A DNA stretch of 64,000 bases, taken from the NCBI RefSeq assembly GCF_963675165.1, contig NC_087384.1, forward strand, positions 341,001 to 405,000, read 5' to 3'. The number at the start of each line of letters is the position of its first letter. Positions within the stretch are counted from its first letter, which is position 1. Shown here in pieces: positions 2,278-64,000 of this stretch. A program made the position numbers and the translations under genes. The notes beneath the pieces were generated by a model. That model was not told where the DNA came from. It searched no databases and worked only from the letters and a program-made list of their open reading frames with translations. Source of the stretch: Halichondria panicea. Lineage: Eukaryota > Porifera > Demospongiae > Suberitida > Halichondriidae.

Positions 2278-2344
<67 letters not shown>

Positions 2345-9523: not shown

Positions 9524-9579
<56 letters not shown>

Positions 9580-12990: not shown

Positions 12991-13028
<38 letters not shown>

Positions 13029-17246: not shown

Positions 17247-20200
17247 ATGATGCCAGGTTCAAAAATAGTTCTTCCAAGCTCTAATGTTGATGATTATACT
17301 GCAACAGCTCTTCGTAGCACCATTTCAAGTATTTTGAACCCTACAAGTAAGCCATCCCCTTCTCGCTAGCGGTGCTGTATGTAGCTGACTGTACTGCACA
17401 TGGCTGGCTGGTAATTACGTAAACACTCAACTCACGAATGCATTGATAACTCATCAGAATGGAGGGGATCGGGTTGATTGGTTCTATGTATAAGCTTTAT
17501 ATTCATATAGTAGCCAGAGAAACACAAATGTTTCCTGCAGTCACAGAGCTAAACATTCTCTTGACTACCTGCAGGTGTGAAGGGTGGAAGCAGCAAAGAA
17601 ATCTACAAGATTGAGAATTGTCCGAGTTGGTGGCCAAAAGATGTGCTGTTTTCTCCTGTGTTAGGTATAATTAGATCATAGATTATCTATGGGTACGTAA
17701 GCACAGCATCTTCCACGGTAGATCTATGTCCAATATTCGTTCGTTGTTTTTCTGTAGTGCCCAAGGCTGTCACGAATGGTATCACTGCTGTACACCGAAG
17801 AAAGATTTTGGCAGCTTTCCTGGAGAAATGTCCTGACCAGTACACAATGTAAGTAATGCCCATCAGGTTACAGATATTAATGTGTGTTTCACAGATTATC
17901 TCCAATTGATCAGCAAAACTCTGCCTCGGCAGTTGAAACTGACCAACCAGAAGACCCTGCAGTTGGTACAAGGATGACAAAGATAGTTCTTCCAAGCTCT
18001 GATGCTGAAGAATATTCTGGAAATATTCTCCGTGACACATTTTCACGTATTGTGAACCCTAAAGGTATATATAACCTACGTGTATAGACATGTCTTTGAG
18101 TTTCTCTTGTAGGTTTGAAAGGCGTAAGCTTCCACAGTAGTGAAAATTGTCCAAGTTGGTGGCCAAAAGATGTGGCTTTTTGTATTCTGTCAGGTATGGT
18201 CAGAAGTGCACAGCCTAACAGTAGATATGTGCAAAATTTGTTACTAAGCTGATTACAATGCGGTCATTGTGTGTTTTTAGGGCCCAAGGCCACCATGAAT
18301 GGTATCACTGCTGAACACCAGAAAAAAGTATTGGCAGCTTTCTTGGAGAAATGTCCTGAGCAGTACACAATGTAAGTTTTTTATGCAAATTGATGTACGT
18401 ATTTCATTATACCCGTGGATTTCCTCACAGATCACTCGGGACTTGGCTACTCAATCCCCCCTCTTCTCCACTCGTTGGTGATAAGCAACCAGTAAGAGAA
18501 GTCAACCCACAAAGTTCCTCTGAAAGTGATCAAGAAGAGCCTGTAGGAATGAACCAAACACCACCTACTGGAGATAACCGTACTCGATCAGTTGGAGCCA
18601 CAATCAGCACTGCTGCACAACATGCAAGCCCAAAGCTTATCCTACCCAGCTCTTGTGCAAATTACTATCATCAATCTCCTCTCATTTTGCTAATTCGAAA
18701 GATTTTGAATCCCCTGCAGCGTAAGTTGTTTGTGTTGTCCTATATCCACTAACATGAATGTTTTTTTGCAGGAATGACGTACTCCAGTGCTAATTGTCCC
18801 AGCTGGTGGCCGACTGATGTACCATTCACTAGGGCGGAAGGTTCATAGCATTCAGTATAATTTTTTGTATGATTACTAATGAGTACAAACGTTTTATACT
18901 GATCAGAAATAGAGACCCTGGGTATATATAGAACTGCCTCAGGTACATTTCTCTTTTACAGATATGAAAGCTGAAGACAGGAGAAAAGTACTGGCAGCTT
19001 TCCTGGAGAATTGTCCTGACCAGTACACAATGTAAGTAATGCCCATCAGTTTACAGATATTAATGTGTTTTGCTCACAGATCACCTCCAGTTGATCAGCA
19101 AAACTCTGCCTCAACAGTTGAAACTGACCAACCAGAAGACCCTGCAGTTGGTACAAAGACAGCCAGGATGATGCCAGGCTCAAAGATAGTTCTTCCAAGC
19201 TCTAATGTTGACAATTATTCTGGAGTCATGCTTCGTGGCATCATTTCCCGTATTGTGAACCCTAAAGGTACATGTATATGATTGTTGTTGAGCTAAAGGA
19301 CGACTTTTTTTTATAGGTTGGACTAGCAGAAATATCTACACAGATGAAAATCGTCCAAGTTGGTGGCCAAAAGATGTGGTGTTTACCCCTGCGACAGGTA
19401 TGGTCTAAAGAACATGCACAGCCAGTAAAAGTGATTGTGCACAAAGTTCGTTGCTAGGCTAATCATAATCAGTTGAGTAAGAAAAGGGGGTCCCCCTCCC
19501 AACTTTGATGTTCTAAAAGTAAAAACATGGGTAAAATGTATACTCCCTTCTCCAAAATAATTATGTGTTTTACAAGTCTAGAGAATGGGCGAACCTAAGA
19601 ATAAGCTCTAAAGATATGTATTTTCAGAATGCAGTGTGTGCATATTAAGTCAGTTTACTGGCCCCTTACACTACTCAAAAAATGTCTACTCCACTGATGA
19701 TGCTTGTCATTGTGTGTGTGTTTTTAGGGCGCAAGGCTATCGAAAATGGCATCACTACTGCACCCCTGAGAAAGGTATTGGGAGCTTTCTTGGAGAAATG
19801 TCCTGAGCAGTACACAATGTAAGTTTTATGCAATTGTACCACACTTACGTCACCACTAATTGATCTCATTGGTCAACAGCTGTAGGATATATAGTATTAG
19901 CATACAACCCCAGGTATGCACAGTTTTCAATTTAGTTTTTTCATTTGTTCTCAAGAAAGTAAGCAAAGAGAAAAGAGCCATGCTTGACAGTACTAAGACT
20001 CAAAGCGACGGCAGGAACACGGAAGGTGCTCTCCAACAAGATGGCTATGCTTCCATGGGTCCATGGACGTGGTTTAGATACATTTTATCCAAGAAGAGCT
20101 TGCAACTCCATAAGGGACGTCGAATGGTCAACGCTTGGACCAAGGAAGCTCTTGAGAATCTGTAGGAGTCAACATGTTGCTCAACTAGCTTTTTGACGGC

Positions 20201-22741
20201 TGCAAAATCCGGCATAGCCTTGTTCTTTTTTGCAGTCTACATCGTGGATTGCTAGGGGGAGGTTCTTTTATAGTGCTGCGGTCACGTGGTATAAGTCAGA
20301 TATGCCACACCTACTCGGAGGATATGCACCCATATATCCTCCGCTACTGTGGTTACTCCGAGGCGGAGTCGAGGGGTATGTAACCATGGTAGCGGAGGAT
20401 ATATAGGGTGAATATCCTCCTCTTAGGTGTGGTATATCCTATACATAATGAAAGGTTGATGGAAAGCTAACTGCACATGAAAGCTAGTTATTATATATTT
20501 TGCATGCTAAGTAACAGGAAACACGAATCTTAAGAGGCTGTAATAGTCTATACTTAACCACAACCCTATAGTCTACCGTATGTTTCACTGCTGATTGGCA
20601 CACCAAAGCATAATACGTGGTGTATTGTATTGTGTTGTGTCATTGCTCACAGATCACCTCCAGTTGATCAGCAAAACTCTGCCTCGACAGTTGAAACTAA
20701 CCGACCAAAAGTCCCTGCAGTTCGCACAAGGAGAGCCAGGATGATGCCAGGCTCAAAGATAGTTCTTCCAAGCTCTGATGTTTATGAATATTCTGGAAAC
20801 ATTCTTCAGAGCTTAATGCCACGTATTGCAAACTCTAAAGGTGGGATTCTATTTAGCTACAGTCAGAAATTCTGAGTTTCTTGTAGGTTGTAAGGGCAGA
20901 ACCGTCTACACAAGTGGTAATCGTCCAAACTGGTGGCCAAAAGATGTGGCGTTTGCTTCTATGACAGGTATAATTATAGTGACAAGTACACACGTGTGTG
21001 CAGAGTTTGTTGCTTGGTAACTATATAATGCATGTCCATTGTGTTGCTGGTATGGATCTTTAGGGAGCAGAACTATCGGTATTGCCACTGCTGTACACCG
21101 GAGAAAGGTACTGGCAGCTTTCCTGGAGAAATGTCCTGAGCAGTACACAATGTAAGTTTTATGCAAATTGGTGTACGTATTTCATTATACCCATGGATTT
21201 CCTCACAGATCACCCGGGGCGTGGCTACTCAATCCCACCTCTTCCCCACTCGTTGGTAATAAGCAACCAGTAAGAGAAGTCAGCCCACAAAGTTTCTCTG
21301 AAAGTTCCTCTGAAAGTTTCTCTGAAAGTGATCAAGAAGAGCCTGTAAGAATGAACCAAACACCACCTACTGGAGCTTATCGTACCCGATCAGTTGGAGC
21401 CGCCACAATCAGCACTGCTGCACAACATGCAAACCCAAAGCTTATCCTACCCAGCTTGTGTGCAAATGACTATTATCAACCTGCTCTCATTTCGCTACTT
21501 CAAAATATTTTAAATCCCCAACGTAAGTCGTTTGTATCGTCTTATAAACCACGTACATGAATATTTTTTGCAGGGCGACAATTCATATACTCCAGTGCTA
21601 ATTGTCCCAGCTGGTGGCCGACTGATGTACCATTCATTAGGGCGGAAGGTTCATAGCAATACATAATTATGCGTAAACGTCAAAGGAAAACATTGTTTTA
21701 GTTCAAATATTTTACACTGATCAGAAATAGAGACCCTAAGTTCTAAAGAAGTGCCTCGGGTACAAATCTAATAGTTTTTCTTGTACAGATATAGAAGCTA
21801 AGGACAGGACAAAAGTACTGACAGCTTTCCTGGAGAAATGTTCTGACCAGTACACAATGTAAGTAATGCCCATCAGGTTACAGATATTAATGTGTGTTGC
21901 ATCATTGCTCACAGATCACCTCCAGTTGATCAGCAAAACTCTGCCTCGACAGTTGAAACTGACCAACCAGAAGACCCTGCAGTTGGTACAAAGAGAGCCA
22001 GGAGGATGTCAGGCTCAAAGATAGTTCTTCCAAGCTCTAATCTTGAGGAATATACTGGAAACATTCTTCGTGACACAATTTCACATATTGCGAACCCTAA
22101 AGGTGTGAACTACGTACTAGTCTCGAAATCCAGCCGATTCTCATTGTAGAGCGTGGGAGGGAGAGAACCGTCTGGTGATAGCATTCAGTATACATATACT
22201 TATATGATGTGTGTAAACGTCAAAGGAAAACATTGTTTTAGTTCAAATATTTTACACTGATCAGAAATAGAGACCCTAAGTTCTATAGAAGTGCCTCAGG
22301 TACAAATCTAATAGTTTTTCTTGTACAGATATGAAAGCTAAGGACAGGACAAAAGTACTGACAGCTGTCCTGGAGAAATGTCCTGAGCAGTACACAATGT
22401 AAGTAATGCCCATCAGGTTACAGATATTAATGTGTGTTGCTCACAGATCACCTCCAGTTGATCAGCAAAACTCTGCCTCGATAGTTGAAACTGACCAACC
22501 AGAAGACACCATCTTTGATGTACAAATGAATGGAAATGAATCCGATGCTGAATCTGATGCTAGCATACCAAGTGACCCCGAAGATCTGGTGAATAGTCTA
22601 GAGCAGCACCTTCTGGATTCTAGGAAAAGAAGGCTCGAGGCTGAGAGGAAAGTTGAGGAGCTGACGGAAGAAGTCAAACGTCTCAGAGAAGAAAGAAAGT
22701 ATATAGGTTCTATTGTGAAACGATCACGACTGCATCACTAG
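17247..22741 (+). CDS. R1: poly-NRF1-like-domain protein, 7 modules + coiled coil
   Basis: Predicted exons: 17247-17346, 17575-17664, 17758-17848; 17895-18064, 18113-18193, 18281-18371; A'B'C' 18431-18720, 18772-18840, 18962-19031; 19080-19267, 19317-19397, 19728-19818; 20653-20840, 20887-20967, 21064-21151; A'B'C' 21209-21522, 21574-21648, 21789-21858; A + C' only 21915-22102, 22329-22398; last exon 22447-22741. The total is 926 codons with no stop. It begins [12 protein letters not shown] directly, with no linker. Modules 3 and 6 are type 2 (SSES repeats, [23 protein letters not shown]). Module 7 lacks exon B, so it has no WWP core: a deletion joined a MITE remnant in the A-B intron to the B'-C' intron, and the frame survives because exon B is 1-1. 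The last exon codes an acidic stretch, the [17 protein letters not shown] coiled coil and the basic tail. A nuclear DNA-binding role is inferred. Confidence 0.7.
19835..20440. mobile_element. ~600-bp non-autonomous DNA transposon in R1 intron
   Basis: Sister introns (25238-25438, 53189-53424) run directly from ATGCAA into TAATGAAA, so the ~600 bases between are an insertion. The ends are approximate inverted repeats of TATACCACACCTAAGAGG (left GTACCACACTTACG). The right third folds into a long hairpin, with arms at about 20301-20355 and 20383-20438 (GGAGGATATGCACCCATATA against its complement). Two overlapping frames of about 70-100 codons run through 19860-20196. They match no family I know and are not supported as a gene. 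The superfamily is unresolved. Confidence 0.6.
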
Positions 22742-22962: not shown

Positions 22963-23610
22963 AAAACTAGTTCTTCCAAGCTCTGAGATTATACTGCAAC
23001 AGCTCTTTGTAGCATCGTGTCACATATTGTGAACCCTACAAGTAAGCTTCTGATTCCATCCCCTTCTCGCTACAGAGCTAAAAATTATCTTGACCCATTT
23101 GCAGGTGCAAAGGGTGGCAAATAAATCTACAAGATTGAGAATTGCCCAAGTTGGTGGCCGAATGATGTGCTGTTTTCTCCTGTGTTAGGTATAATTAGAT
23201 CATACATTATCTATATGGATACGTATTTTAATATACCTTAAGGTGACATATTTTCGCGTGTATTAATTTTCCGCTATTTCTGCGAATGGAGTAAAATCGC
23301 AAAAATTAGTACTCGCAAATAATTGGCCGCCCTCTTGTTTAATGTATCCAGATCGACATTCGCAAACAATTATACCAGCAAAATGTACAAAACTGTTAAA
23401 ACGCAAACAAATCTACCTGTGAAAATATGTCACCTTAAGGTAGTCGAAGCACAGTGCTACCAGTAGATCTTCCACGGCAGATATTATTATGTGCAATATT
23501 CCTTTTTCTATAGTGCCCAAGGCCGGCTGTCACATGGTATCACTGCTGTACACCGAAGAAAGATTTTGGTAACTTTCTTTGAGAAATGTCCTGAGCAGTA
23601 CACAATTTAA
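22963..23610 (+). pseudogene. Relic first module of R2
   Basis: The first exon lacks the ATGATGCCAGGTTCA start and has an internal deletion (TCTGAGATTATACTG in place of TCTAATGTTGATGATTATAC). Exon B (from 23105) has a stop codon before IYK. Exon C (from 23514) carries a 2-base length change and ends AATTTAAGT instead of AATGTAAGT, which destroys the donor. This module cannot contribute a frame, so R2 must begin later. The same damaged first exon recurs near 37450, so the lesion predates a block duplication. Confidence 0.75.
23236..23440. mobile_element. TA-target MITE (Tc1/mariner type), 205 bp
   Basis: Perfect outer inverted repeats CCTTAAGGTGACATATTTTC, flanked by TA on both sides (23234-23235, 23441-23442). 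The paralogous introns at 27650 and 52375 lack the element and have a single TA, which proves insertion and TA duplication. It has no coding capacity. It is specific to the R2 relic module, so it is younger than the intron duplication. Confidence 0.88.
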
Positions 23611-23758: not shown

Positions 23759-26700
23759 ATGATGTCAGGTTCAAAGATAGTTCTTCCAAGCTCTGATATT
23801 GAGGAGTATACTGGAAACATTCTTGTGAACACAGCTTCACGTATTTCGAAACCTAAAGGTATGATTCTATTTAGCTACAAAGTTATGTGAGTTTCTTGTA
23901 GGTTGGAGTGGCGGCAGGAACGCCTATACGAGTGATAATCGTCCAAGTTGGTGGCCAAAAGATGTGGTGTTTTGCTGTTTGAAAGGTATATAGCACACAG
24001 TAGATATGACTGTGCAAAATTCGTTTCTAGGTTACATCTAGTATCATTGTGTGTTTTTAGGGCCCAAGGCTGTCGCGAATGATATCACTAGTGTACACCG
24101 GAGAAAGGTATTGGCAGCTTTCTTGGAGAAATGTCCTGAGCAGTACACAATGTAAGTAATGCCCATCAGTTTACAGATATTAATGTGTGTTGCATCATTG
24201 CTCACAGATCACCTCCAGTTGATCAGCAAAACTCTGCCTCGACAGTTGAAACTGACAAACCAAAAGACCCTGCAGTTGGTACAAAGAGAGCCAGGATGGG
24301 CCCAAAGATAGTTCTTCCAAGCTCTAATGTTGAGGAATATACTGGAAACATTCTTCAGAGCACAGTTTCAAGTATTGTGAAGCCTAAAGGTACGATTCTA
24401 TTTAGCTACAAGTTTAGCCTCGATTCCAGGCCGAGTTGTTTCTAGCTAGGCCGACAATTAGGCCTGGTGTTAATTGTATCTGGGCGTGTATCTGGGCGTG
24501 GTTAGGAACCAAAAACAAGAAGCAGAGATATTTACATGAACAATTTACACACCTGTCAACAAGGGCCGGCAGTGTTGGTCCTACGTACTAATTTGTAGTC
24601 CATCACAAAGGGCAATGAGTGAAAGCAAGATATTTGCCATACCATGTTGAAAACCATGGCAAAGACGTTTCTTCCTTCTGACAAGAGCTGGGCCTGTTCT
24701 GCAATGAGAGTGGGGCCTTCTTGTGAAGCAGACAATGTATACGTTAATCTGAACAACTTAAACTTTCAGTAGCTAGCTAGCTAGATAATCTATCGCTAGA
24801 TTTCAGTTAGCATACACTTATACGGGGAAATATGACAGGAAACAAAGTGTGAAGAATCTCTGCTTTGGTTTCCGGTTCCTGCCACTCCCAGATACAATCA
24901 ATACCAGGCCGTATTTTTCAACTTGTTCTATTAAAAAAAATCGGCCTGGGACCGAGGCTACTACGTACAAGTTATGAGTTTCTTGTAGGTCGGAGTGGCG
25001 GTAGGAACGCCTATATGAGTGATACTCGTCCAAGTTGGTGGCCAAAAGATGTGGTGTTTTCCTGTTTGAAAGGTATATATAGCACACAGTAGATATGACT
25101 GTGCAAGATTCGTTGCTAGGTTACATGTCATTGTGTGTGTTTTTAGGGCCCACGGCTACCATGAATGGTATCACTACAGTACACCGGAGAAAGGTATTGG
25201 CAGCTTTCTTGGAGAAATGTCCTGAACAGTACACAATGTAAGTTTATGCAAATAATGAAAAGTTAAAAGCTAGGTATTATATATTTTGCATGCTAAGTAA
25301 CAGGAAACACGAATCTTAAGAGGCTGTAATAGTCTATACTTAACCACAACCCTATAGTCTACCGTATATTTCACTACTGATTGGCACACCGAAGCATAAT
25401 ACGTGGTGTATTGTGTTGTGTTGTGTCATTGCTCACAGATCACCTCCAGTTGATCAGCAAAACTCTACCGTGGCAGTTGAAACTAACCGACCAGAATACC
25501 CTGCAGTTAGTACAAAGAGAGGCAGGATGATGCCAGGCTCAAAGATAGTTCTTCCAAGCTCTGATGTTGATGAATATGCTGGAAACATTCTTCAGAGCTT
25601 AGTATCACATATTGCAACCTCTAAAGGTGGGATTCTATTTGGCTACAGTCCGAAATTCTAAGTTTCTTGTAGGTTGTAAGGGCAAAAACATCTACACAAG
25701 TGACAATTGCCCAAATTGGTGGCCAAAAGATGTGGCGTTTGCTTCTATGACAGGTATAATTATAGTGACAAGTACACACGTGTGTGCAGAGTTTGTTGCT
25801 TGGTAACTATATAATGCATGTCCATTGTGTTGTTATTGGTATGGATCTTTAGGGTACAGAGCTACTGGTATTGTCACTGCTGTACACCGGAGAAAGGTAT
25901 TGGCAGCTTTCCTGGAGAAATGTCCTGAGCAGTACACAATGTAAGTTTTATGCAAATTGGTGTACGTATTTCATTATACCCATGAATTTCCTCACAGATC
26001 ACCCGGGGTGCGGCTACTCAATCCCCCCTCTTCCCGACTTGCTCGTGTTAAGCAACCAGTAAGAGAAGTCAGCCCACAAAGTTCCTCTGAAAGTTCCTCT
26101 GAAAGTTTCTCTGAAAGTGATCAAGAAGAGCCTGTAGGAATGAACCAAACACCACCTACTGGAGCTTATCGTACCCGATCAGTTGGAGCCGCCACAATCA
26201 GCACTGCTGCACAACATGCAAGCCCAAAGCTTATCCTACCCAGCTTGTGTGCAAATGACTATTATCAACCTGCTCTCATTTCGCTACTTCAAAATATTTT
26301 AAATCCCCAACGTAAGTCATTTGTATTGTCTTATAAACCACTAAAATGAATATTTTTTGCAGGGCGACACTTCATATACTCCAGTGCTAATTGTCCCAGC
26401 TGGTGGCCGACTGATATACCATTCATTAGGGCGGAAGGTTCATAGCAATGCATAATTATGCGTAAACGTCAAAGGAAAACATGTTTTAGTTCAAATATTT
26501 TACACTGATCAGAAATAGAGACCCTAAGTTCTATAGAAGTGCCTCAGGTACAAATCTAATAGTTTATCTTGTACAGATATGAAAGCTAAAGACAGGACAA
26601 AAGTACTGACAGCTTTCCTGGAGAAATGTCCTGACCAGTACGCAATGTAAGTATAATGCCCATCAGGTTACAGATATTAATGTGTGTTGCATCATTGCTC

Positions 26701-26999
26701 ACAGATCACCTCCAGTTGATCAGCAAAACTCTGCCTCGATAGTTGAAACTGACCAACCAGATGACACCATCGTTGATGTACAAATGAATGTAAATGAATC
26801 TGATGCTGAATCTGATGCTAGCATACCAAGTGACCCCGAAGATCTGGTGAATAGTCTAGAGCAGCATCTTCTGGATTCTAGGAAAAGAAGGCTCGAGGCT
26901 GAGAGGAAAGTTAAGGAGCTGACAGAAGAAGTCAAACGTCTCAGAGAAGAAAGGAAGTATATAGGTTCTATTGTGAAACGATCACGACTCCATCACTAG
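23759..26999 (+). CDS. R2: poly-NRF1-like-domain protein, 4 modules + coiled coil, start recruited from exon A
   Basis: Predicted exons: 23759-23858 (exon A itself opens at 23671), 23902-23985, 24061-24151; 24208-24389, 24989-25072, 25147-25237; 25439-25626, 25673-25753, 25853-25940; A'B'C' 25998-26311, 26363-26437, 26577-26646; last exon 26705-26999. From ATGATG at 23759 this gives 580 codons without a stop. Because the annotated first module upstream is dead, I place the start at the internal [12 protein letters not shown], which aligns with the first-exon starts of the sisters. Whether a transcript reaches it from the leader at 22918 by skipping the relic is unknown. The intron 24390-24988 contains a DNA transposon. 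Module and tail features are as for R1. Confidence 0.6.
24415..24965. mobile_element. ~550-bp hAT-like non-autonomous transposon in R2 intron
   Basis: Inverted termini TAGCCTCGATTCCAGGCCGA (24415) and the complement TCGGCCTGGGACCGAGGCTA (to 24960). The intron sequence TACAAGTT occurs on both sides (24407-24414 and 24966-24973) but once in paralogous introns such as 56357-56364, giving an 8-bp target duplication typical of hAT elements. Five extra bases (CTACG) separate the right inverted repeat from the duplication. No transposase frame is seen. Confidence 0.72.
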
Positions 27000-50500: not shown

Positions 50501-51743
50501 ATTTAACCTTAAAACTCATACTTGTACATTTTTTATATTATTGTGGTAATGAATTTTCTACAAATCCGGCAAAATTAGTACCCTAAAAACAGACTGAAAA
50601 CGCTAAAATTACTACCCGTCTATAATAGTAACATTAAGGCATATCGATTGTGTTGCTGTTATGGATATTTAGGGCGCAAAAGTACTGGTATTGTCACTGC
50701 TGTACACCAAAGAAAGGTATTGGCAGCTTTCTTGGAGAAATGCCCTGAGCAGTACACAATGTAAGTTTATAAATTGATGTACGTATTTCATTATACCCAT
50801 GGATTTCCTTACAGATCACCCGGGGCTTGGATACTCAATACCACCTCTTCCCCACTCGTTGGTGATAAGCAACCAGTAAGAGAAGTCGTCAGCCCACAAA
50901 GTTTCTCTGAAAGTGATCAAGAAGAGCCTGTAGGAATGAACCAAACACCACCTACTGGAGCTTATCGTACTCAATCAGTTGGAGCCACAATCAGCATTGC
51001 TGCACAGCATGCAAGCCCAAAGCTTATCCTACCCAGCTCTTGTGCAAATGACTACTCTCAACCTAGTCTCATTTCGCTAATTCGAAAGATTTTAAATCCC
51101 CAACGTAAGTCGTTTATATTGTCTTATAAACCACTAACATGAAGATTTTTTGCAGGGCGACACTTCATATACTCCAGTGCTAATTGTCCCAGCTGGTGGC
51201 CGACTGATGTACCATTCATTAGGACGGAAGGTTCATAGCAATACATAATTATGCGTAAATGTCAAAGGAAAACATTGTTTTAGTTCAAATATTTTACACT
51301 GATCAGAAATAGTCTTGTACAGATATGGAAGCTAAGGACAGGACAAAAGTACTGACAGCTTTTCTGGAGAAATGCCCTGAGCAGTACACAATGTAAGTAA
51401 TGCCTATCAGTTTAAAGATATTAATGTGTGTTGCATCATTGCTCACAGATCACCTGCAGTTGATCAGCAAAACTCTGCCTCGATAGTTGAAACTGACCAA
51501 CCAGAAGACACCATCGTTGATGTACAAATGAATGCAAGTGAATCTGATGCTGAATCTGATGCTAGCATAACAAGTGACCCCGAAGATCTGGTGAATAGTC
51601 TAGAGCAACACCTTCTGGATTCTAGGAAAAGAAGGCTCGAGGCTGAGAGGAAAGTTGAGGAGCTGACGAAAGAAGTCAAACGTCTCAGAGAAGAAAGGAA
51701 GTTCATAGGTTCTATTGTGAAACGATCACGACTCCATCACTAG
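44519..51743 (+). CDS. R6: poly-NRF1-like-domain protein, 9 modules + coiled coil (largest)
   Basis: Predicted exons: 44519-44618, 44937-45017, 45079-45169; 45581-45759, 45820-45897, 45991-46063; 46118-46305, 46348-46431, 46497-46587; 46990-47135, 47193-47273, 47373-47445; 47502-47689, 48023-48103, 48193-48283; A'B'C' 48337-48644, 48694-48768, 48901-48970; 49019-49206, 49257-49337, 49717-49807; 49911-50098, 50145-50225, 50673-50760; A'B'C' 50815-51104, 51156-51230, 51323-51392; last exon 51449-51743. The total is 1174 codons with no stop. It starts [12 protein letters not shown], an exon-A methionine pair placed behind the leader by fusion. Modules 2 and 4 use the displaced exon-C acceptor. 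Module 4 reads HPSWWPKDV and a Lys/Gly-rich loop. Modules 5-9 match R3 modules 2-7, with one fewer type-1 module. Confidence 0.67.
44634..44908. mobile_element. PIF/Harbinger-type MITE, 275 bp, in first intron of R6
   Basis: Long inverted ends GGCCACTCCAAGTGATA..CTGGTTTCTGGTCC, flanked by TTA on both sides (44631-44633, 44909-44911). Sister introns read ATTTAGCTACAAG with one TTA, so a 3-base target duplication is shown, typical of PIF/Harbinger. The interior carries CTGCGCATGCGTA at 44795-44807. Confidence 0.88.
45170..45560 (+). repeat. Repeat X copy in R6 intron
   Basis: Near full-length apart from the terminal hairpin, ending CACACACAAACACACTACTG then TACACCTTGCTGCCAGGCAT. It lies between module 1 exon C and module 2 exon A. 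Confidence 0.55.
46588..46960 (+). repeat. Repeat X copy in R6 intron
   Basis: Same landmarks, with a private deletion around the AAGAAGTGTGCC segment. Paired with 62043-62415 in R9, which supports common descent of R6 module 4 and R9 module 3. Confidence 0.55.
47705..47984. mobile_element. TAGTCTCGAA-ended MITE in R6 module 5 A-B intron
   Basis: Inverted ends TAGTCTCGAAATCCAGCCGG and the complement of CCGGCTAGAATTCGAGACTA, about 280 bp. The same intron in R1 (18065-18112) is short and lacks it. A full copy is also at 63165-63434. About 60-70 bases of its left end remain at 22117, 36598 and 55096, exactly where exon B has been lost. Confidence 0.8.
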
Positions 51744-52065: not shown

Positions 52066-55000
52066 ATGATGCCAGGTTCAAAAATAGTTCTTCCAAGCTC
52101 TAATGTTGATGATTATACTGCAACAGCTCTTCGTAGCATAATTTCACATATTGTGAACCCTACCCGTAAGCTTCTGATTCCATCCCCTTCTCGCTACAGA
52201 GCTAAAAATTCTCTTGACTACCTGCAGGTGTGAAGGGTAGAAGCAGCGGCAAAGAAATCTACAAGATTGAGAATTGTCCGAGTTGGTGGCCAAAAGATGT
52301 GCTGTTTTCTTCTGTGTTAGGTATAATTAGGTATAATTAGATCATAGATTATCTATGGGTACGTATTTTAATATAGTCGGAGCACAGTGCTACCAGTAGA
52401 TCTTTTACGATAGATCTACGTGCAATATTCGTTTTGTTGCTTTCTGTAGTGCCCAAGGCTGTCACAAATGGTGTCACTGCTGTACACCGAAGAAAGATTT
52501 TGGCAGCTTTCTTGGAGAATTGTCCGGACCAGTACACAATGTAAGTAATGCCCGTCTTTTGTCCACTTTCCCGTACCCTCTCTTGTAGATTAGCTCTCGC
52601 ACTGTCTTCAGGTTAGGGTACCTGTGTGTGTGTGTGTGTGTGTGTAGAGCACTTGGTCACTGGCATGCATTTTGGGCATGGTTGATCAGGTTACAGATAT
52701 TAATGTGTGTTGCATCATTGCTCACAGATCACCTCCAGTTGATCAGCGAAACTCTGCCTCGACCATTAGAACTGACCAACCAGCAGTTGGTACAAAGAGA
52801 GCCTGGATGCCAGGCTCAAAGATAATTCTTCCAAGCTCTGATGCTGAGCAATATACTGGAAACGTTCTTCTGAACACAGTTTCAAGTATTGCCAAGCGTA
52901 AAGGTATGATTCTATTTAGCTACAAGTTATGAGTTTCTTGTAGGTCAGAGTGGCGGCAGGAACGCCTATACGAGTGATAATCGTCCAAGTTGGTGGCCAA
53001 AAGATGTGGTGTTTTCCTGTTTGAAAGGTATATAGCACACAGTAGATATGACTGTGCAAAATTCATTGCTAGGTTACATGTCATTGTGTGTTTTTAGGGT
53101 CCAAGGCTACCATGAATGGTATCACTACAGTACACCAGAGAAAAGTATTGGCAGCTTTCTTGGAGAAATGTCCGGAGCAGTACACAATGTAAGTTTTATG
53201 CAAATAATGAAAGGTTGATGGAAAGCTAACTGCACATGAAAGCTAGGTATTATATATTTTGCATGCTAAGTAACAGGAAACACGAATCTTAAGAGACTGC
53301 ATGTAATAGTATAGTCAGTCTATACTTAACCACAACCCTATAGTCTACCGTATATTTCACTGCTGATTGGCACACCGAAGCATAATACGTGGTGTATTGT
53401 GTTGTGTTGTGTCATTGCTCACAGATCACCTCCAGTTGATCAGCAAAACTCTGCCTCGACAGTTGAAACTGACCAACCGGAATACCCTGCAGTTGGTACA
53501 AAGAGAGCCAGGATGATGCCAGGCTCAAAGATAGTTTTTCCAAGCTCTAATGTTTATGAATATTCTGGAAACATTCTTCAGAGCTTAATATCACGTATTG
53601 CAAGCTCTGAAGGTGGGATTCTATTTAGCTACAATCCGAAATTCTGAGTTTCTTGTAGGTTGGGGCAGAAACTTCTACACAAGTGATAATCGTCCAAATT
53701 GGTGGCCAAAAGATGTGGCGTTTACTCCTATGACCGGTATATAGTGACAAGTACACACAGTCTAACCAAGGGCGTATAAAAGAAGAGAGGGCATGCAACT
53801 CCACTATCAGTACATGTAGCTAGCAGAGTTCAAACGTGGGCGGAGGAATGTGTGCATTTGCATGAAGTGCTAAAAATAGAAATGAAAATGAAATGAATAT
53901 TTTTAGCATTTCATGCAAATGCACACATTCATCCGCCCACGTTTGAACTCTGCTCATATTAGGAATTGCATGCCCCCTCTTCTTTTATACATCCTTGGTC
54001 TAACAATAGAGTTTGTTGCTTGGTAACTATATTATGCATATCGATTATGTTGCTCTTGTTATTGATCTTTAGGGCACAAAACTACTGGTATTGTCACTAC
54101 TGTACATCGGAGAAAGGTATTGGCAGCTTTCCTGGAGAAATGTCCTGAGCAGTACACAATGTAAGTTTTATGTAAATTGATGTACGTATTTCATTGTACC
54201 CATGGATTTCCTCACAGATCACCTGCGGCGTGGCTACCCTCTTCCCGACTCGTTCGTGTTAAGAAACCAGTAAGAGAAGTCAGCCCACAAAGTTCCTCTG
54301 AAAGTTTCTCTGAAAGTGATCAAGAAGAGCCTGTAGGAATGAACCAAACACCACCTACTGGAGCTTATCGTACCCAATCAGTTGGAGCCGCCACAATCAA
54401 CACTGCTGCACAACATGTAAACCCAAAGCTTATCCTACCCAGCTTGTGTGCAAATGACTATTATCAACCTGCTCTCATTTCGCTACTTCAAAATATTTTA
54501 AATCCCCAACGTAAGTCGTTTGTATTGTCTTATAAACCACGAACATGAATATTTTTGCAGGGCGACAATTCATATACTCCAGTGCTAATTGTCCCAGCTG
54601 GTGGCCGACTGATGTACCATTCATTAGGGCGGAAGGTTCATAGCAATACATAATTATGCATAAACTTCAATGGAAAACATTGTTTTAGTTCAAATATTTT
54701 ACACTGATCAGAAATAGAGAACCTAAGTTCTATAGAAGTGCCTCGGGTACAAATCTAATAGTTTTTCTTGTACAGATATGGAAGCTAAGGACAGGACAAA
54801 AGTACTGACAGCTTTCCTGGAGAAATGCCCTGAGCAGTACACAATGTAAGTAATGCCCATCAGGTTACAGATATTAATGTGTGTTGCTCACAGATCACCT
54901 CGAGTTGATCAGCAAAACTCTGCCTCGATAGTTGAAACTGACCAACCAGAAGACCCTGCAGTTGGTACAAAGAGAGCCAGGATGATGCCAAGCTCAAAGA

Positions 55001-55720
55001 TAGTTCTTCCAAGCTCTGATGCTGAGGAATATTCTGGAAACTTTCTTCGTGACACAATTTCACATAGTGTGAACCCTAGAGGTATGAACTACGTACTAGT
55101 CTCGAAATCCAGCCTGTTCTCATTAGTAGCGTTGGAGGGAGAGAACCGTCTGGTGGCTCTGGGCATTCATAGCATAATTATATGATGTGTGTAAATGTCA
55201 AAGGAAAACCATTGTTTTAGTTCAACACTGATCAGAAATAGAGACCCTAAGTTCTATAGAAGTGCCTCAGGTACAAATCTAATAGTTTTTCTTGTACAGA
55301 TATGGAAGCTAAGGACAGGACAAAAGCACTTTCAGCTTTCCTGGAGAAATGTCCTGACCAGTACACAATGTAAGTAATGCCCATCAGTTTACAGATACTA
55401 ATGTGTGTTGCATCATTGCTCACAGATCACCTCCAGTTGATCAACAAAACTCTGTCTCGATAGTTGAAACTGACCAACCAGATGACACCATCGCTGATGT
55501 ACAAACGAATGCAAATGAATCTGATGCTGAATCTGATGCTAGCATAACAAGTGACCCCGAAGACCTGGTGAATACTCTAGAGCAGCACCTTCTGGATTCT
55601 AGGAAAAGAAGGCTTGAGGCTGAGAGGAAAGTTGAGGAGCTGACGAAAGAAGTCAAACGTCTCAGAGAAGAAAGGAAGTTCATAGGTTCTATTGTGAAAC
55701 GATCACGACTCCATCACTAG
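52066..55720 (+). CDS. R7: poly-NRF1-like-domain protein, 5 modules + coiled coil
   Basis: Predicted exons: 52066-52165, 52228-52320, 52450-52540; 52728-52903, 52944-53027, 53098-53188; 53425-53612, 53659-53736, 54073-54160; A'B'C' 54218-54510, 54561-54635, 54776-54845; A + C' only 54894-55081, 55300-55369; last exon 55426-55720. The total is 659 codons with no stop. It is the block-duplicate partner of R4, with the same module order and the same exon-B loss. Differences include a [10 protein letters not shown] core in module 3, a GSG insertion in module 1 exon B and a shorter module 2 linker. A ~140-base insertion with a short (GT)n lies in the module 1-2 intron (about 52545-52690), and a MITE in the B-C intron of module 3. 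Confidence 0.7.
53766..53998. mobile_element. CCAAGGGCG-ended MITE, 233 bp
   Basis: Near-complete hairpin: CCAAGGGCGTATAAAAGAAG...CTTCTTTTATACATCCTTGG, with inner arms GAGTTCAAACGTGGGCGGA also inverted. TCTAA flanks both sides (53761-53765, 53999-54003), and R4 has one TCTAA at the same place (35508-35512). It therefore inserted after the R4/R7 duplication and is one of the youngest events here. Confidence 0.9.
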
Positions 55721-56240: not shown

Positions 56241-59200
56241 ATGTCAGGCTCAAAGATAGTTCTTCCAAGCTCTGATGCTGAGCAATATACTGGAAACATT
56301 CTTCTTAACACAGTTTCAATTATTTCCAGGCCTAAAGGTATGATTCTATTTAGCTACAAGTTATGAGTTTCTTTTAGGTCAGAGTGGCCGCAGGAACGCC
56401 TATACGAGTGATAATCGTCCAAGTTGGTGGCCAAAAGATGTGGTGTTTTGCTGTTTGAAAGGTATATAGCACACAGTAGATATGACTGTGCAAAATTCAT
56501 TGCTAGGTTACATGTCATTGTGTGTGTTTTTAGGGTCCAAGGCTGCCGCCACGAATGGTATCACTACAGTACACCGGAGAAAGGTATTGGCAGCTTTCTT
56601 GGAGAAATGTCCGGAGCAGTACACAATGTAAGTTTTTAAGGAAAGCACTGCAACCTCAGTACACATGATAACACTTTTGATTTGCATGCAGAAATAGTAC
56701 AAGAGAGTGGGAAAACCTTATAAGAAGTGTGCCAAAGGTTCAAAGTCCATAATTAATGCAGCTCTTTCCTCACACTTGCAGCTACCATTCTAGTGCAGAG
56801 CTAACTCCTAAGTAGAATAGAACGAGGCTTCAACATATGCAAAATTAGCCATAACTCGAATGAAGCATTATTTTGTAAATCACTAATTGCAATGTAGAAA
56901 ACGTGACTAGAAGCCTATAAAAGCTCTTACTTGCCCTTCATTTATCATTGAGCAGCTGCAGTAGTCTATACACACACAAACACACTACTGTACACCTTGC
57001 TGCCAGGCATATTAATACAGTATGATAATGTGTTGCTCACAGTTCACCTCCAGTTTATCAAGTTGGTACAAAGAGAGCCAGGATGATGGCAGACTCAAAG
57101 ATAGTTCTTCCAAGCTCTAATACTGAGGAATATTCTGGAAGTATTCTTCGTGGCATCATTTCCCGTATTGTGAACCCTAAAGGTGCCATATGTCTGTTTG
57201 TTTGGCTACAGAACGAAATTTATTGACAATCTTGTACGTAGGTCAGAGTCACAGAAACTTCTTTACAAGGGATAATTCTCCAAGTTGGTGGCCAAAAGAT
57301 GTGGCATTTTCTCATATAGGTATATTTTATAGCCAGATAGTTTCAAAATGTGTTGCTAGTTTATAATTGTTATGTATAATTATGTCATTTTGTTGTTTTT
57401 TGGGGGCCCAAAGATTATATCACTGCTGTAAGCCAGAGAAAGATTTTGGCAGCTTTCTTTGAGAAATGTCCTGACCAGTACACAATGTAAGTAATGCCCA
57501 TCAGGTTACAGATATTAATGTGTGTTGCATCATTGCTCACAGATCACATCCAGTTGATCAGCAAAACTCTGCTTCGATAGTTGAAACTGACCAGCCAGAA
57601 GTCCCTGCTCTGAAGAATGCAGTTGGTACAAAGAGAGCCAGGATGATGCCAGGCTCAAAGATAGTTCTTCCAAGCTCTGATGCTGAGGAATATTCTGGAA
57701 ACATTCTTCAGAGCGTAATGATACGTATTGCAAACTCTAAAGGTATGATTCTATTTAACTGCAGTCCGAAATTTCTTAGAGTTTCTTGTAGGTTGGGGCA
57801 AAAATTTCTACACAAGTGACAATTGCCCAAGTTGGTGGCCAAAAGATGTGGTGTTTGCTCCAATGACAGGTATGTACTCAGAAGTACACACGTGTGTGCA
57901 GAGTTTGTTGCTTGGGTAACTACTGTATTTACTTGATTAAACGCCCGGACGTTTATTTCATATCGAAGTCTGTAGAGGGGGCGTTTAAACGAGATGGGCA
58001 CTTATTCGAAACGGGCGTTTATTGTTGAATCTACTCCAAACTCTTGCACAGCAGTTGTTGTTTATGCTCTTTTTGGCTGCTGCCACAGCTCTCAGCTTAT
58101 ATCTTAAGTCATAGGAGTGGTGTTTCTCCCTCTGTGCTGGTATCTCTCTCTCTGCCATCATAAAAAGTATCTATATTCTATGCTGCCATGCTTGCAACTG
58201 CATGGTTCTACGTGCTAATTCAGCTCCACCCACAGTGCCACGCCCATACATGGGCATTTACAGAGCTTTTACCCTGGGCGTTTAAACGAGATGGGCGTTT
58301 AATCAAGGAGGGCGTTTAATCAAGTAAATACGGTATATAATGCATATCGATTATATTGTTATTGGTATTGATCTTTAGGGCTCAGAGCTATTGGTATTGT
58401 CACTAGTGTACACTGGAGAAAGGTATTGGCAGCTTTCCTGGAGAAATGTCCTGAGCAGTACACAATGTAAGTGTGAATCGCTCTTTCAGATATTAATGTG
58501 TGTTGCATCATTGCTCACAGATCACCTCCAGTTGGTACAAAGAGAGCCAGGATGCCAAGCTCAAAGATAGTTCTTCCAAGCTCTGATGTTGAGGAATATA
58601 CTGGAAACATTCTTCAGAGGACAGTTTCACGTATTGCGAAGCCTAAAGGTATGATTCTATTTAGCTACAAGTTATGAGTTTCTTGTAGGTCGGAGTGGCC
58701 GCAGGAATGCCTATACGACTTATAATCGTCCAAGTTGGTGGCCAAAAGATGTGGTATTTTCCTGTTTGAAAGGTATATAGTACACAATAGATATGTGCAA
58801 AATTTGTTGCTAGGTTACATGTCATTGTGTGTGTTTTTAGGGCCCAAGGCTGCCATGAATGGTATCGCTACTGTACACCGGAGAAAGGTATTGGCAGCTT
58901 TCTTGGAGAAATGTCCGGAGCAGTACACAATGTAAGTTTTTATGAAAGCACCGCAACCTCCTCGGTGCACACGCTAAAACTTTTGATTTGCATTTTGAAC
59001 GAAGAAATGGTGCAAGAGAGTGGGAAAACCTTAAGAAGTGTGCCAAAAGTTCAAAGTCCATAATTAATGACTGCAGCTCTTTCCTCACTGTTGCAGCTAC
59101 CGTTCTATTGCAGAGCTTACAAACACACTACTGTACACCTTGCTTCCAGACATAATTAATACAGATATTATAATATGTTGTATCATCACTCACAGATCAC

Positions 59201-60694
59201 GTCCAGTTGATCAGCAAAACTCTGCCTCGGCTGATCTACTAAAACACCCACTCACTGGTACAAAGAAAACCAGGATAATGGCAGACTCAAAGATAGTTCT
59301 TCCAAGCTCTAATGCTGAGGAATATTCTGGAATAGATCTCCGTACCATAATTTCCCGTATTGTGAAGCCTAAAGGTACATGTGTGTATCATTGTAGTTTA
59401 GCTGCAGGACGACGTTTATTTGAATTTCTTGTAGGTAAAAGAAAGTTCTACACAAGTGATAACTGTCCAAGTTGGTGGCCAAAAGATGTGGCGTTTACTG
59501 CTCCAACAGGTATGGTCAGAAGTGCACAGCCTAACAGCAGATGTTTGCAAAATTCTTGTCTATAGGCTAATCAAAATCGTTTCATTGTGTGTTTTAGGGG
59601 GGAGCAAAGCTATCGCAAATAATATCACTGTTGGAAACATGAGAATGATTTTAGCATCTTTCTTGGAGAAATGTCCTGAGCAGTACACAATGTAAGTCAA
59701 ATTGATGTATTTCATTATACCCGTGGATTTCCTCCAGATCACCTGGGAAATTGCTACTCAATCCCCCCTCTTCCCCACTCGTTGGTGATAAGCAACCAGT
59801 GAGAGAAGTCAGCCCACAAAGTTCCTCTGAAAGTGATCAAGAAGAGCCTGTAGGAATGAACCAAATACCACCTACTGGAGCTAATCGTACCCGATCAGTT
59901 GGAGCCGCCACAATCAGCACTGCTGCACAACATGCAAGCCCAAAGCTTATCCTACCCAGCTCTTGTGCAAATGACTACTCTCAACCTAGTCTCATTTCGC
60001 TAATTCGAAAGATTTTAAATCCCAAAAGTAAGTCGTTTGTGTTGTCCTATATAACAACTATATACTAACATGAATATTTTTTGCAGGGCGACACTTCATA
60101 TACTCCAATGCTAATTGTCCCAGCTGGTGGCCGACTGATGTACCATTCATTAGGGCGGAAGGTTCATAGCAATGCATAATTATGCGTAAACGTCAAAGGA
60201 AAACATTGTTTTAGTTCAAATATTTTACACTGATCAGAAATAGAGACCCTAAGTTCTACTTTTTCTTGTACAGATATGGAAGCTAAGGACAGGACAAAAG
60301 TACTGACAGCTTTCCTGGGGAAATGTCCTGACCAGTACACAATGTAAGTAATGCCCATCAGGTTACAGATATTAATGTGTGTTGCATCATTGCTCACAGA
60401 TTACCTCCAGTTAATCAGCAAAACTCTGCCTCGATAGTTGAAACTGACCAACCAGATGACACCATCGCTGATGTACAAATGAATGCAAATGAATCTGATG
60501 CTGAATCTGATGCTAGCATAACAAGTGACCCCGAAGACCTGGTGAATAGTCTAGAGCAGCACCTTCTGGATTCTAGGAAAAGAAGGCTCGACGCTGAGAG
60601 GAAAGTTGAGGAGCTGACGGAAGAAGTCAAACGTCTCAGAGAAGAAAGGAAGTATATAGGTTCTATTGTGAAACGATCACGACTCCATCACTAG
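56241..60694 (+). CDS. R8: poly-NRF1-like-domain protein, 6 modules + coiled coil, rewired 5' end
   Basis: Predicted exons: 56241-56337, 56378-56461, 56534-56627; 57043-57182, 57242-57319, 57414-57486; 57543-57742, 57792-57869, 58379-58466; 58521-58648, 58689-58772, 58841-58931; 59196-59374, 59435-59509, 59598-59691; A'B'C' 59738-60027, 60087-60161, 60274-60343; last exon 60400-60694. From ATG 56241 ([11 protein letters not shown]) this gives 770 codons without a stop; from 56106 it gives 45 more. It is the block-duplicate partner of R5. Module 3 has a 4-codon linker insertion. Module 2 exon C uses the displaced acceptor. The acceptor of the type-2 exon has lost TCACAG (CCTCCAG). Confidence 0.63.
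56628..57020 (+). repeat. Repeat X copy in R8 intron
   Basis: Partner of 38060-38470, in the same intron position of the duplicated block. Confidence 0.55.
57923..58335. mobile_element. MITE 'Z', uninterrupted copy
   Basis: Inverted ends TGTATTTACTTGATTAAACG / CGTTTAATCAAGTAAATACG with a TA boundary; ~410 bp, no frame. It serves as the empty-site control for the nested insertions at 39916-41719. Confidence 0.82.
58932..59160 (+). repeat. Repeat X, shortened copy in R8 intron
   Basis: Partner of 42312-42540. It has the same 3' truncation, so the truncation is older than the block duplication. Confidence 0.5.
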
Positions 60695-61070: not shown

Positions 61071-64000
61071 ATGATGCCAGGTTCAAAGATAGTTCTTCCA
61101 AGCTCTAATGTTGATGATTATACTGCAACAGCTCTTCATAGCACAATTACTCGTATTGTGAACCCTACAAGTAAGCTTCTGATTACATCCCCTTCTCGCT
61201 ACAGAGCTAAAAATTCTCTTGACTACCTGCAGGTGTGAAGGATGCAAGCAGCAAAGAAATCTACAAGATTGAGAATTGTCCGAGTTGGTGGCCAAAAGAT
61301 GTGCTGTTTTCTTCTGTGTTAGGTATAATTAGATCATAGATTATCTATGGGTACGTATTTTAATATAGTCGGAGCACAGTGCTACCAGTAGATCTTCCAC
61401 GGTAGATCTATGTCCAATATTCGTTTGTTGTTTGTCTGTAGTGCCCAAGGCTGTCACGAATGGTATCACAGTTGTACACCTAAGAAAGATTTTAGCAGAT
61501 TTCTTGGAGAAATGTCCTGAGCAGTACATAATGTAAGTAATGCCCATCAGGTTACAGATATTAATGTGTGTTTCACAGATCACCTCCAGTTGATCAGCAA
61601 AATTCTGACTCGACAGTTGAAACTGACCAACCAGAAGACCCTGCAGTTGGTACAAAGAGAGCCTGTATGGGCCCAAAGATAGTTCTTCCAAGCTCTGATG
61701 TTGAGGAATATACTGGAAACGTTCTTCAGAACATAGTTTCAAGTATTTCGAAGCCTAAAGGTATGATTCTATTTAGCTACAAGTTATGAGTTTTTTGTAG
61801 GTTGGAGTGGCGGCAGGAACGCCTATACGAGTACTGATCGTCCAAGTTGGTGGCCAAAAGATGTGGTGTTTTGCTGTTTGAAAGGTATTTACAGTAGATA
61901 TGTGGACAATTCGTTGCTAGGTTACATGTCATTGTGCGTGTCATTCTTCAGGGTCAAAGGCGATGTCAAATGGTATCACAGTTGTACACCGGAGAAAGGT
62001 ATTGGCAGCTTTCTTGGAGAAATGCCCTGAGCAGTACACAATGTAAGTTTTATGCAAGCACCGCAACCTCGGTGCATATGCTAAAACTTTGATATATATG
62101 TATGCAGAAACGGTGCAAGAGAAACCTTATAAGAAAGTTCAAAGTCCATAATTAATGGCTGCATTCTCATAAACAGTGCATCTCTTTCCTCACTCTTGTT
62201 CTAGTGCAGAGCTAACTATTAAGTGGAATAGCACGAGTCTTAAGAAGTTCAACGTATTCAAAATTAGCCATAACTCGAGAATGAAGCATTATTTTATAAA
62301 TCCATGTCGTGACTAGAACCCTATAAAAACTCTTACTTGCCCTTCATTTATCATTGAGCAGCTACAGTAGTCTATACACACACAAACACACTACTGTACA
62401 CCTTGCTGCCAGGTATAATTATTAATGTGTGTTGCATCATTGCTCACAGATCACGTCCAGTTGGTCAGCAAAAAAACTCTGCTATACAAAAAAGTTTTGG
62501 TACAAACAGCTCAAAAATAATTCTTCCAAGCTCTAATGCTGAGGAATACATTGGACTCTTTCTTCGTAGCACCGTTTCCCATATTGCGAACCCTAAAGGT
62601 ACATGTGTCATATTATGTTTATACTACAGAACAAAATGTATTGACAATCTTGTAGGTCGGAAGGGCGGCAGCTTCTACAGGAATAATAATTGTCCAAGTT
62701 GGTGGCCAAAAGATGTGGCGTTTGTTCCTTCAGGTATATTTTATAGTCATGGCAGATAGTTTCAAAATGTGTTGCTAGTTTATAATTGTTATGTATAATT
62801 ATGTCATTTTGTTGTTTTTTGGGGGCCCAAAGATTATATCAATGCTGTAAACCAGAGAAAGATTGTGGCAGCTTTCTTGGAGAAATGTCCTGAGCAGTAC
62901 ACAATGTAAGTAATGCCCATCAGGTTACAGATATTAATGTGTGTTGCATCATTGCTCACAGATTATCTCCAGTTGATCAGCAAAACTCTGCCTCGGCATT
63001 TGAAACTGACCAACCAGAAGACCCTGCGGTTGGTACAAAGAGAGTCAGGAGGATGCCAGGCTCAAAGATAGTTCTTCCAAGCTCTGATGTTAAGGAATAT
63101 TCTGGAAACTTTCTTCGTGACACAATTTCAAATATTGCGAACCCTAAAGGTATAAACTACGTACTAGTCTCGAAATCCAGCCGGTTCTCATTAGTAGCGT
63201 GGGAGGGAGAGAACCGTCTGGTGACTCTGGGCATACTTTTCTATCATCGGACGGAATGTTGGTAGAGTATATACATTGGAGCCTTATCCACAAGAATGTA
63301 AGATAGCTTTCACAGTTCTTTTAATTTAGTGCGCATTAAATTGTGGTTATTATCCACGCGGTTAACACATTCCTGGCTGGCAGAACAGAACGCCCAGAGT
63401 GAGAACTAATGAGAACTGGCTGGAATTCGAGACTGATGAACTGCATGCATGTCATAGAAATTTCTTTGAGTTTCTTGTAGATTTGATGATCAGAAAGTGC
63501 TACAGTAGTGAAAATTGTCCAAGTTGGTGGCCAAAAGATGTGCCTTTTTGTATTCTGTCAGGTATGGTCAGAAGTGCACAGCCTAACAGTAGATATGTGC
63601 AAAATTCGTTACTACTAAGTTATTGTGTGTGTTTTAGGGCCCACAGTTTCCGACCAGAGAAGAAAGGTATTGGCAGCTTTCTTGGAGAAATGTCCGGAGC
63701 AATACACAATGTAAGTTTTTATGAAAGCACTGCAACCTCAGTACACATGATAACACTTCTGATTTGCATGCAGAAATAGTACAAGAGAGTGGGAAAACGT
63801 TATAAGAAGTGTGCCAAAGGTTCAAAGTCCGTGGCTGCATTCTCATAAAACAGTGCAGCTCTTTCCTCACTCTTGCAGCTACCGTTCTAGTGCAGAGAAA
63901 ATCTCAAAATATGACTTTTTTAGCAGAATCTCACTGAAAAAATGTATTAAAACGTGATCGACTAGAAGCCTATAAAAGCTCTTACTTGCCCTTCATTTAT
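61071..64000 (+). CDS. R9: poly-NRF1-like-domain gene, first 4 modules, cut by window edge
   Basis: Predicted exons: 61071-61170, 61233-61322, 61442-61532; 61579-61760, 61801-61884, 61952-62042; 62450-62598, 62656-62733, 62833-62905; 62962-63149, 63481-63561, 63638-63710; the gene continues beyond 64000. It begins [12 protein letters not shown]. Module 3 has a short Gln/Lys linker and the displaced exon-C acceptor. Module 4 carries the full TAGTCTCGAA MITE in its A-B intron. Its exon C is shortened in frame ([15 protein letters not shown]). Modules 2-4 correspond to R6 modules 3-5. No stop was found in the visible part. Confidence 0.63.
62043..62415 (+). repeat. Repeat X copy in R9 intron
   Basis: Same deletion form as 46588-46960. 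Ends CACACACAAACACACTACTG then TACACCTTGCTGCCAGGTAT. Confidence 0.55.
63165..63434. mobile_element. TAGTCTCGAA-ended MITE in R9 module 4 A-B intron
   Basis: About 270 bp, inverted ends as at 47705-47984, same insertion point after GAAACTACGTAC-like sequence, so inherited by duplication rather than inserted twice. Confidence 0.78.
63711..64000 (+). repeat. Repeat X copy, cut by window edge
   Basis: Begins after exon C of R9 module 4 with TATGAAAGCACTGCAACCTC and reaches AGAAGCCTATAAAAGCTCTT before the end of the window. Confidence 0.55.

Follow-up and report, generated by a model that had tools for sequence, protein, structure and literature searches.

Polydactyl zinc-finger clusters of the KRAB-ZNF type consist of tandem genes encoding several modules per chain, with a constant core and variable positions. 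The YDR124W-like helical bundle (PF11001) is a family that is fungal by name; we know of no protein with serial copies of its domain and of no solved YDR124W structure. NRF1, grouped with Erect wing and P3A2 (PF10491), is a dimer that binds GCGC half-sites. It is usually low-copy, with counts of 0, 1, or 3 across nine columns of a table in the accessible part of one source (PMC8122590). According to the available portion of a structural report, human NRF1 contacts DNA bases through R206, N242, and R244, with backbone contacts that include T201, Q202, W224, W258, and T259 (PMC10810270). Drosophila SU(VAR)2-1/Ova (CG5694) is described in excerpts of two studies as acting in heterochromatic and transposon silencing (PMC7021753, PMC6335052). 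Here, we analyze a stretch of 64,000 nt (the window) from the sponge Halichondria panicea, C8:341001–405000 of a 39-contig, 131.5-Mb assembly with eukaryotic gene structure. It contains a constrained tandem gene array whose predicted proteins carry 4–9 NRF1-related modules with a WWP core, an architecture nowhere described in the literature searched; searches that included expansion in sponges found no serial NRF1-type domains.

Each module is encoded by three short exons, A, B, and C, bounded by recurrent GT-AG sites. Exon A mostly ends in NPK at the donor AAAG/GT, exon B carries the WWP core and ends at GTAT or GTTC, and exon C ends in CPEQYT at the donor ACAAT/GTAAGT, with the next exon A mostly starting after CACAG/ATC. 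The introns are in phase 1 at A/B, phase 1 at B/C, and phase 2 between C and the next A. Because phase-2 introns border the A-B-C block, gain or loss of a whole block is frame-neutral, and exon B (1-1) is likewise skippable. The original prediction placed up to nine repeats of the module motifs in one frame. Nine modules do recur in one gene (P6), and a shared reading frame is ruled out, as every module is split over three exons and the longest start-to-stop open reading frame of the array encodes 150 amino acids (32558–33010). A first assembly yielded 54 complete stop-free modules (47 on the + strand and 7 on the −), over which P41, WWP, D47, F50, and C78 are invariant; after initially missed exons were added, the + gene models hold 50 complete modules and three without exon B. 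The linkers are acidic or rich in serine, and many contain a GTKRAR-like stretch that may act as a nuclear signal, which would place the proteins in the nucleus. All ten complete genes finish in a similar last exon that likely encodes a C-terminal coiled coil, judging by a heptad-like pattern seen by eye and sub-threshold Pfam matches, several of them to coiled-coil families. Examples of each exon are:

57543–57742, + strand, exon A with KRAR linker, SKIVLPSS, and first helix region, donor AAAG/GTATGA
57792–57869, + strand, exon B with the WWP core
58379–58466, + strand, exon C, donor ACAAT/GTAAGT
22447–22741, + strand, last exon with acidic linker, likely coiled coil, and the end VKRSRLHH

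On the + strand, array motifs run in fixed order between 17.2 kb and the window end; on the − strand, they run from 7.5 kb to the window start. The whole array, at ~C8:336.2 to 433.0 kb, exceeds the window on both sides. A genome-wide query with one exon B found 101 matches, each of which was scored; 98 of them fall inside C8:336.6–432.2 kb (96 kb), so the clustering is not due to chance; the remaining three, at 1.78, 2.35, and 2.50 Mb, are weak, and each bears a stop. The array holds 17 last-exon matches on the + strand and 5 on the −, two of the latter containing stops. Eleven gene units lie wholly inside the window, and ten of these (eight on the + strand, two on the −), when conceptually spliced, read through from ATG to stop, giving predicted proteins of 516–1174 amino acids with 4–9 modules each and no internal stop.

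The interval 17247–64000 had been taken as the array and credited with at least 13 genes. The motifs do occupy it, and we count nine genes there, eight complete and one truncated by the window end; the array is larger, reaching N1 and N2 (7543–5070 and 4794–1931, −) and beyond the window ends. The expectation that several modules are joined per polypeptide agrees with the gene models, in which conceptual splicing joins 4–9. Exon ends were picked with a preference for open frames, and the starts of P2, P5, P6, and P8 were placed at the first intact exon A. Letters below denote 11 module types on the + strand, defined at a 13% nucleotide cut, with x for a module without exon B:

17168–17246, + strand, stretch immediately 5′ of the P1 ATG, largely common to P1, P3, P4, P7, and P9; 5′ untranslated region, promoter, or upstream exon
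17247–22741, + strand, P1: 21 exons, 926 amino acids, 6 WWP modules and one without exon B (a-b-c-d-e-c-x), likely coiled-coil last exon
23759–26999, + strand, P2: 13 exons, 580 amino acids, 4 modules (f-f-e-c)
27363–33650, + strand, P3: 22 exons, 942 amino acids, 7 modules (a-b-c-d-e-e-c)
33955–37226, + strand, P4: 15 exons, 661 amino acids, 4 WWP modules and one without exon B (a-f-e-c-x)
37681–44104, + strand, P5: 19 exons, 764 amino acids, 6 modules (f-g-e-f-h-c)
44519–51743, + strand, P6: 28 exons, 1174 amino acids, 9 modules (f-g-i-j-b-c-d-e-c)
52066–55720, + strand, P7: 15 exons, 659 amino acids, 4 WWP cores, P4 architecture (a-f-e-c-x)
56241–60694, + strand, P8: 19 exons, 770 amino acids, 6 WWP cores, P5 architecture (f-g-e-f-h-c)
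61071–64000, + strand, P9: 12 exons, frame open as far as the window end, 4 modules (a-f-j-k..)
5070–7543, − strand, N1: 13 exons, 555 amino acids, 4 modules, likely coiled-coil last exon
1931–4794, − strand, N2: 13 exons, 516 amino acids, 4 modules, likely coiled-coil last exon
387–1615, − strand, N3 remnant: exons decayed, with stops and lost pieces

Coding constraint was assessed in four duplicate pairs (15, 19, 16, and 15 exons, with P3 in two of them), drawn from open models with decayed units excluded. Frame-shifting indels make up 0/17 in exons versus 49/61 in introns. No nonsense change is observed among 417 exon substitutions, versus 16.4 expected under neutrality, a count partly conditioned by the use of open models; the indel contrast is less affected. 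The ratio of nonsynonymous to synonymous divergence (dN/dS) is 0.49–1.01 over eight matched gene pairs, for which exons were matched automatically (10–16 per pair, thus partial coverage). Frames are preserved while amino acids evolve fast. Divergence is slightly higher in exons (417/8184) than in trimmed introns (115/2914; p = 0.013), an excess not taken as positive selection because synonymous divergence (Ks) exceeds intron divergence in 7/8 pairs. The suggestion of rapid adaptive turnover finds no backing in these dN/dS values or in the putative DNA-contact positions, where 19 recent pairs show no recent excess (proportion of nonsynonymous differences, pN, 0.057 at contacts versus 0.049 elsewhere).

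A profile of 24 spliced modules, run at a threshold of E ≤ 10 against 177,635 distinct PDB sequences as one of three overlapping queries, matched only human NRF1 chains, 8k3d (E 3.2e-4) and 8k4l (1.3e-3), with module positions 8–82 aligned on residues 21–97 of 8k3d, a chain of 109 residues. The same two entries, and no others, came from a 9-row profile headed by a diverged gene on contig C1 (E 4.4e-3) and from a single module (5.3e-3). The match is confined to the ~80-amino-acid C-terminal DNA-binding part of NRF1, and the N-terminal dimerization domain is absent, the best PF10491 stretches in P6, N1, P4, and module 1 beginning at or after profile position 148. When every residue of the NRF1 segment except WWP was shuffled, the score was reached in 2/4000 shuffles for human NRF1 and 1/4000 for the sponge's own NRF1; the NRF1 flanks therefore contribute in register. 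The module had been called NRF1-like; the description stands in that NRF1 chains are the only PDB matches, and is narrowed to the C-terminal DNA-binding part, with the base contacts not kept. On present sequence comparisons, the best-fitting Pfam family is YDR124W-like and NRF1 is the sole solved relative found, and we term the module NRF1-related and do not class it as an NRF1 member.

Contact columns were derived from the profile-to-8k3d alignment with residue numbering fitted by us, placing R206, N242, and R244 at columns 18, 52, and 54 and W224 and T259 at columns 35 and 68. All 54 modules have Y, H, or F in column 35, and 47 of the 54 have R or K in column 68. Over the 54 modules, columns 52, 54, and 18 rank 1, 6, and 9 in variability among the 76 columns holding 48 or more residues, and 42 of 70,300 column triples are equally variable. 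Family-wide pN at columns 52, 18, and 54 is 0.67, 0.59, and 0.54, exceeding the proportion of synonymous differences there. Diversification of the predicted contact positions is plausible.

Our preferred reading, at a probability of roughly 0.56, is that the array encodes polydactyl DNA-binding proteins of the NRF1/YDR124W-like kind, in which 4–9 WWP modules would read DNA serially. Its established part comprises the exon models, the constrained open frames, the module orders, and the sequence relation, and the modules would be spliced into one chain as the models predict. The tandem multigene family would thus produce chains of 4–9 WWP domains with KRAR-like basic motifs in the linkers and a likely coiled coil at the end. 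Each module would grip DNA like one NRF1 DNA-binding domain, placing its first helix and its WWP loop in the groove, while chain connectivity and the coiled coil would substitute for the missing dimerization domain. One protein could then read several short subsites and, putatively, a long composite site. Recombination would add, drop, or swap phase-2-bordered three-exon modules with the frame intact, and such phase-symmetric cassette recombination fits the differing orders of ~11 module types. More tentatively, and at well below even odds, the proteins may constitute a new polydactyl class, in which phase-symmetric three-exon WWP cassettes are reshuffled to give a combinatorial code that specifies long DNA sites, possibly against mobile DNA as with zinc-finger clusters and Ova.

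Results that weigh against serial DNA reading concern the gene models, the structure model, the family assignment, and the contact residues, and are given here and in the next two paragraphs. The open models and the duplicate-pair test are partly conditioned on the choice of open-frame exons, and the exon C acceptor is an inferred one in g- and j-type and some N2 modules. The starts of P2, P5, P6, and P8 were chosen, and decayed or out-of-phase pieces lie upstream of three of them: a decayed first module at 22972–23606 (stops, lost donor) precedes P2, a degenerate a-type exon at 37453 precedes P5, and a linker-like stretch containing a stop lies directly upstream of P6. AlphaFold, given the in-frame module 17980–18371 as an intron read-through together with a 27-row in-frame alignment, produced an unusable model (predicted local distance difference test, pLDDT, 46; predicted template modeling score, pTM, 0.35). 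Helices at 15–25 and 111–124 of this unusable model lie at the expected sites of two helices, and a Foldseek search with it gave 0 matches. Against the whole of the sponge's own NRF1, the module profile scores only 14.8 bits, top among 2000 shuffles and corresponding to E 0.27 at PDB size.

The alternative that survives best, unlikely in our estimate, assigns the module to a YDR124W-like (or EIN3-like) WWP-plus-helix family, with NRF1 distant or unrelated and function following that uncharacterized family. YDR124W-like, which the original prediction left out of consideration in naming NRF1 as the family, matches 19/24 single modules at E ≤ 1 (best 8.2e-6), versus 6/24 for NRF1 (best 0.003) and 3/24 for EIN3 (best 0.024). 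Full-length scans covered 3/10 proteins, with scores summed over repeats and inflated by that summing. PF11001 reaches 112.2, 45.6, and 47.6 bits in P6, N1, and P4, all above its cut-off of 31.3, and outscores PF10491 in each (47.2, 20.8, and 28.6 bits; gathering cut-off 23.5). The comparison with the NRF1 profile proposed for the module gives a divided answer: single modules stay below the cut-off (best 17.8 bits), and the summed score passes it in two of the three proteins, P6 and P4. Against PF11001, too, a single module peptide falls short (25.4 bits). The canonical NRF1 of the sponge, encoded separately on C13 (306.7 bits, profile 1–212), matches PF10491 only, with no YDR124W match. Masking WWP takes the median pairwise z score to own NRF1 (54 modules) down to 0.6 from 5.6 and leaves a weak profile score equalled by 126–318 of 4000 shuffles; because masking removes it, the pairwise NRF1 signal comes mostly from the WWP motif. 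The PDB result can count neither for nor against this alternative, as no YDR124W structure is among the matches. In favor of the NRF1 relation stand the in-register contribution of the flanks and the two summed scores above cut-off, and the NRF1 and YDR124W-like matches overlap around the same WWP. NRF1, YDR124W-like, and EIN3 may form one WWP superfamily, in which case this alternative would merge into serial DNA reading by NRF1/YDR124W-like modules. The full-length scans favor YDR124W-like and lowered our probability for the preferred reading from 0.62 to 0.56, raising this alternative from slight to its present minor share.

Slightly less probable again is that the module is a relative of the NRF1 DNA-binding domain that has lost DNA binding and serves as a serial protein-protein interaction repeat. 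The NRF1 base-contact residues are mostly replaced, R206 being R in 19/54 modules, N242 being N in 2/54, and R244 being R in 0/51. The mean net charge of +3.8 (50 modules) lies below the +9 of the sponge's own NRF1 DNA-binding domain. The portions available of the Ova studies report, as a caution, that a fragment lacking the NRF1-like domain sufficed for rescue (PMC7021753, PMC6335052). Loss of binding is opposed by the residues equivalent to W224, which are Y, H, or F in every module, and to T259, which are R or K in 47 modules of 54, and by the place of the predicted DNA-facing columns among the most variable. That variability is less distinctive among 18 representatives, where columns 52, 54, and 18 rank only 4, 5, and 21 of 77, the neighboring columns 15, 16, 19, and 30 are equally variable, and 568/73,150 triples are as variable (568/17,296 among non-core columns).

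That the locus is largely decaying duplicated DNA with young open frames is improbable: the dN/dS range of the eight pairs, the dead first modules near P2 and P5, the remnant N3, and the decayed copies at other C8 sites and on C5 and C3 fit such decay, whereas 10/11 units are open, indels keep the frame, and nonsense changes are absent from the 417 exon substitutions.

A diverged one-module gene on C1 (L049 2260–4130; C1:5176260–5178130) contains exons A, B (with WFP, not WWP), and C, a linker, and an array-like last exon. With splice sites read by eye, the phases of its three module junctions match those of the array, and its module is 38–45% identical to eight array modules. The array may have descended from a gene like this one, and the C1 gene itself is possibly ancestor-like. 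Decayed array relatives are present on other parts of C8 and on C5 and C3. On C8 near 1.78, 2.12, 2.35, 2.37, and 2.50–2.51 Mb (L041–L046), segments of up to ~7 kb are repeated at 80–99% identity and hold decayed array-exon pieces with many stops. Scans of the module profile against viral contigs (54 pattern stretches) and genome contigs (21) confirmed no match, and the source genome may be outside these scans; in PHROGs, the module matched only families of unknown function (E 0.08–0.095). PF11001 and PF04873, searched exon-wise against the sponge genome ignoring introns, gave one weak match each (E 0.27 and 0.44). No Pfam zinc-finger family was matched in P6 or N1 (E ≤ 1) or P4 (E ≤ 10), the Ova-type C2HC motif not being searched by pattern.

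Several further features were observed in the array and around it. In five exon C copies (38854–38926, 45991–46063, 47373–47445, 57414–57486, and 62833–62905), no AG is present at the usual acceptor, which reads TTTTTTGGGGGCCC in the copies inspected, and a downstream AAAG acceptor preserves the frame. The final module of P1, P4, and P7 (22103–22328, 36584–36805, and 55082–55299) lacks the WWP exon, with exons A and C still in frame. The B-C intron of P5 at 39298–41760 measures 2463 nt versus 509 nt in the duplicate P8, a difference of ~2 kb. A tandem repeat of 336–348 bp is present in five copies at 13863–15546, between the + and − gene groups, and in two copies at 30791–31519, within a P3 intron. 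The two orientations are separated by a gene island at 7745–16766, in which the open reading frames 9848–11008 (−) and 15771–16766 (+) have no Pfam match, and weak matches to B-box-like (7745–8449, −) and Rad9 (12344–12682) families occur. A COX1-like fragment with two in-frame TGA codons lies at C1:5280527–5280718 (L034) on a large contig and is the sole COX1 match; the assembly showed no mitochondrial contig.

If serial DNA reading is correct, a half-domain turned into a repeating cassette would represent another route to modular DNA readers besides zinc fingers and would show how a dimeric factor could turn into a covalent multimer. The array would also provide dozens of naturally occurring variants from which the recognition code of a poorly known fold could be learned, and would link animal NRF1 with the uncharacterized YDR124W-like family.

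Among known systems, the EIN3 DNA-binding domain (PF04873) shows a weak match over the WWP region in 3/24 modules, scores below cut-off wherever scored, and no EIN3 chain among the PDB matches. SU(VAR)2-1/Ova differs in having one NRF1-like domain, equivalent to the C-terminal half of NRF1, and a C2HC zinc finger, and the available portions of its sources do not mention an array (PMC7021753, PMC6335052). The YDR124W-like bundle shares the WWP motif and the following helix and is the top-scoring Pfam family, with P6, N1, and P4 passing the summed cut-off; it differs in that a single module peptide remains below it. NRF1, Erect wing, and P3A2 (8k3d, 8k4l) share the WWP core and ~75 residues in register. 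By our fitted numbering and the accessible part of the NRF1 report, the array module has an aromatic residue or His at W224, a Leu or similar residue at L205 and L262, and Cys at C269 (PMC10810270). In contrast to NRF1, the array proteins have no dimerization domain, carry 4–9 module copies, do not conserve R206, N242, and R244, and match the family below cut-off as single modules. The fold is unrelated to that of KRAB-ZNF clusters, and the H. panicea modules are three-exon blocks in which DNA binding and contact selection are putative. As in KRAB-ZNF clusters, the genes stand in tandem, each predicted chain would carry several modules, and a constant core appears to be combined with variable positions.

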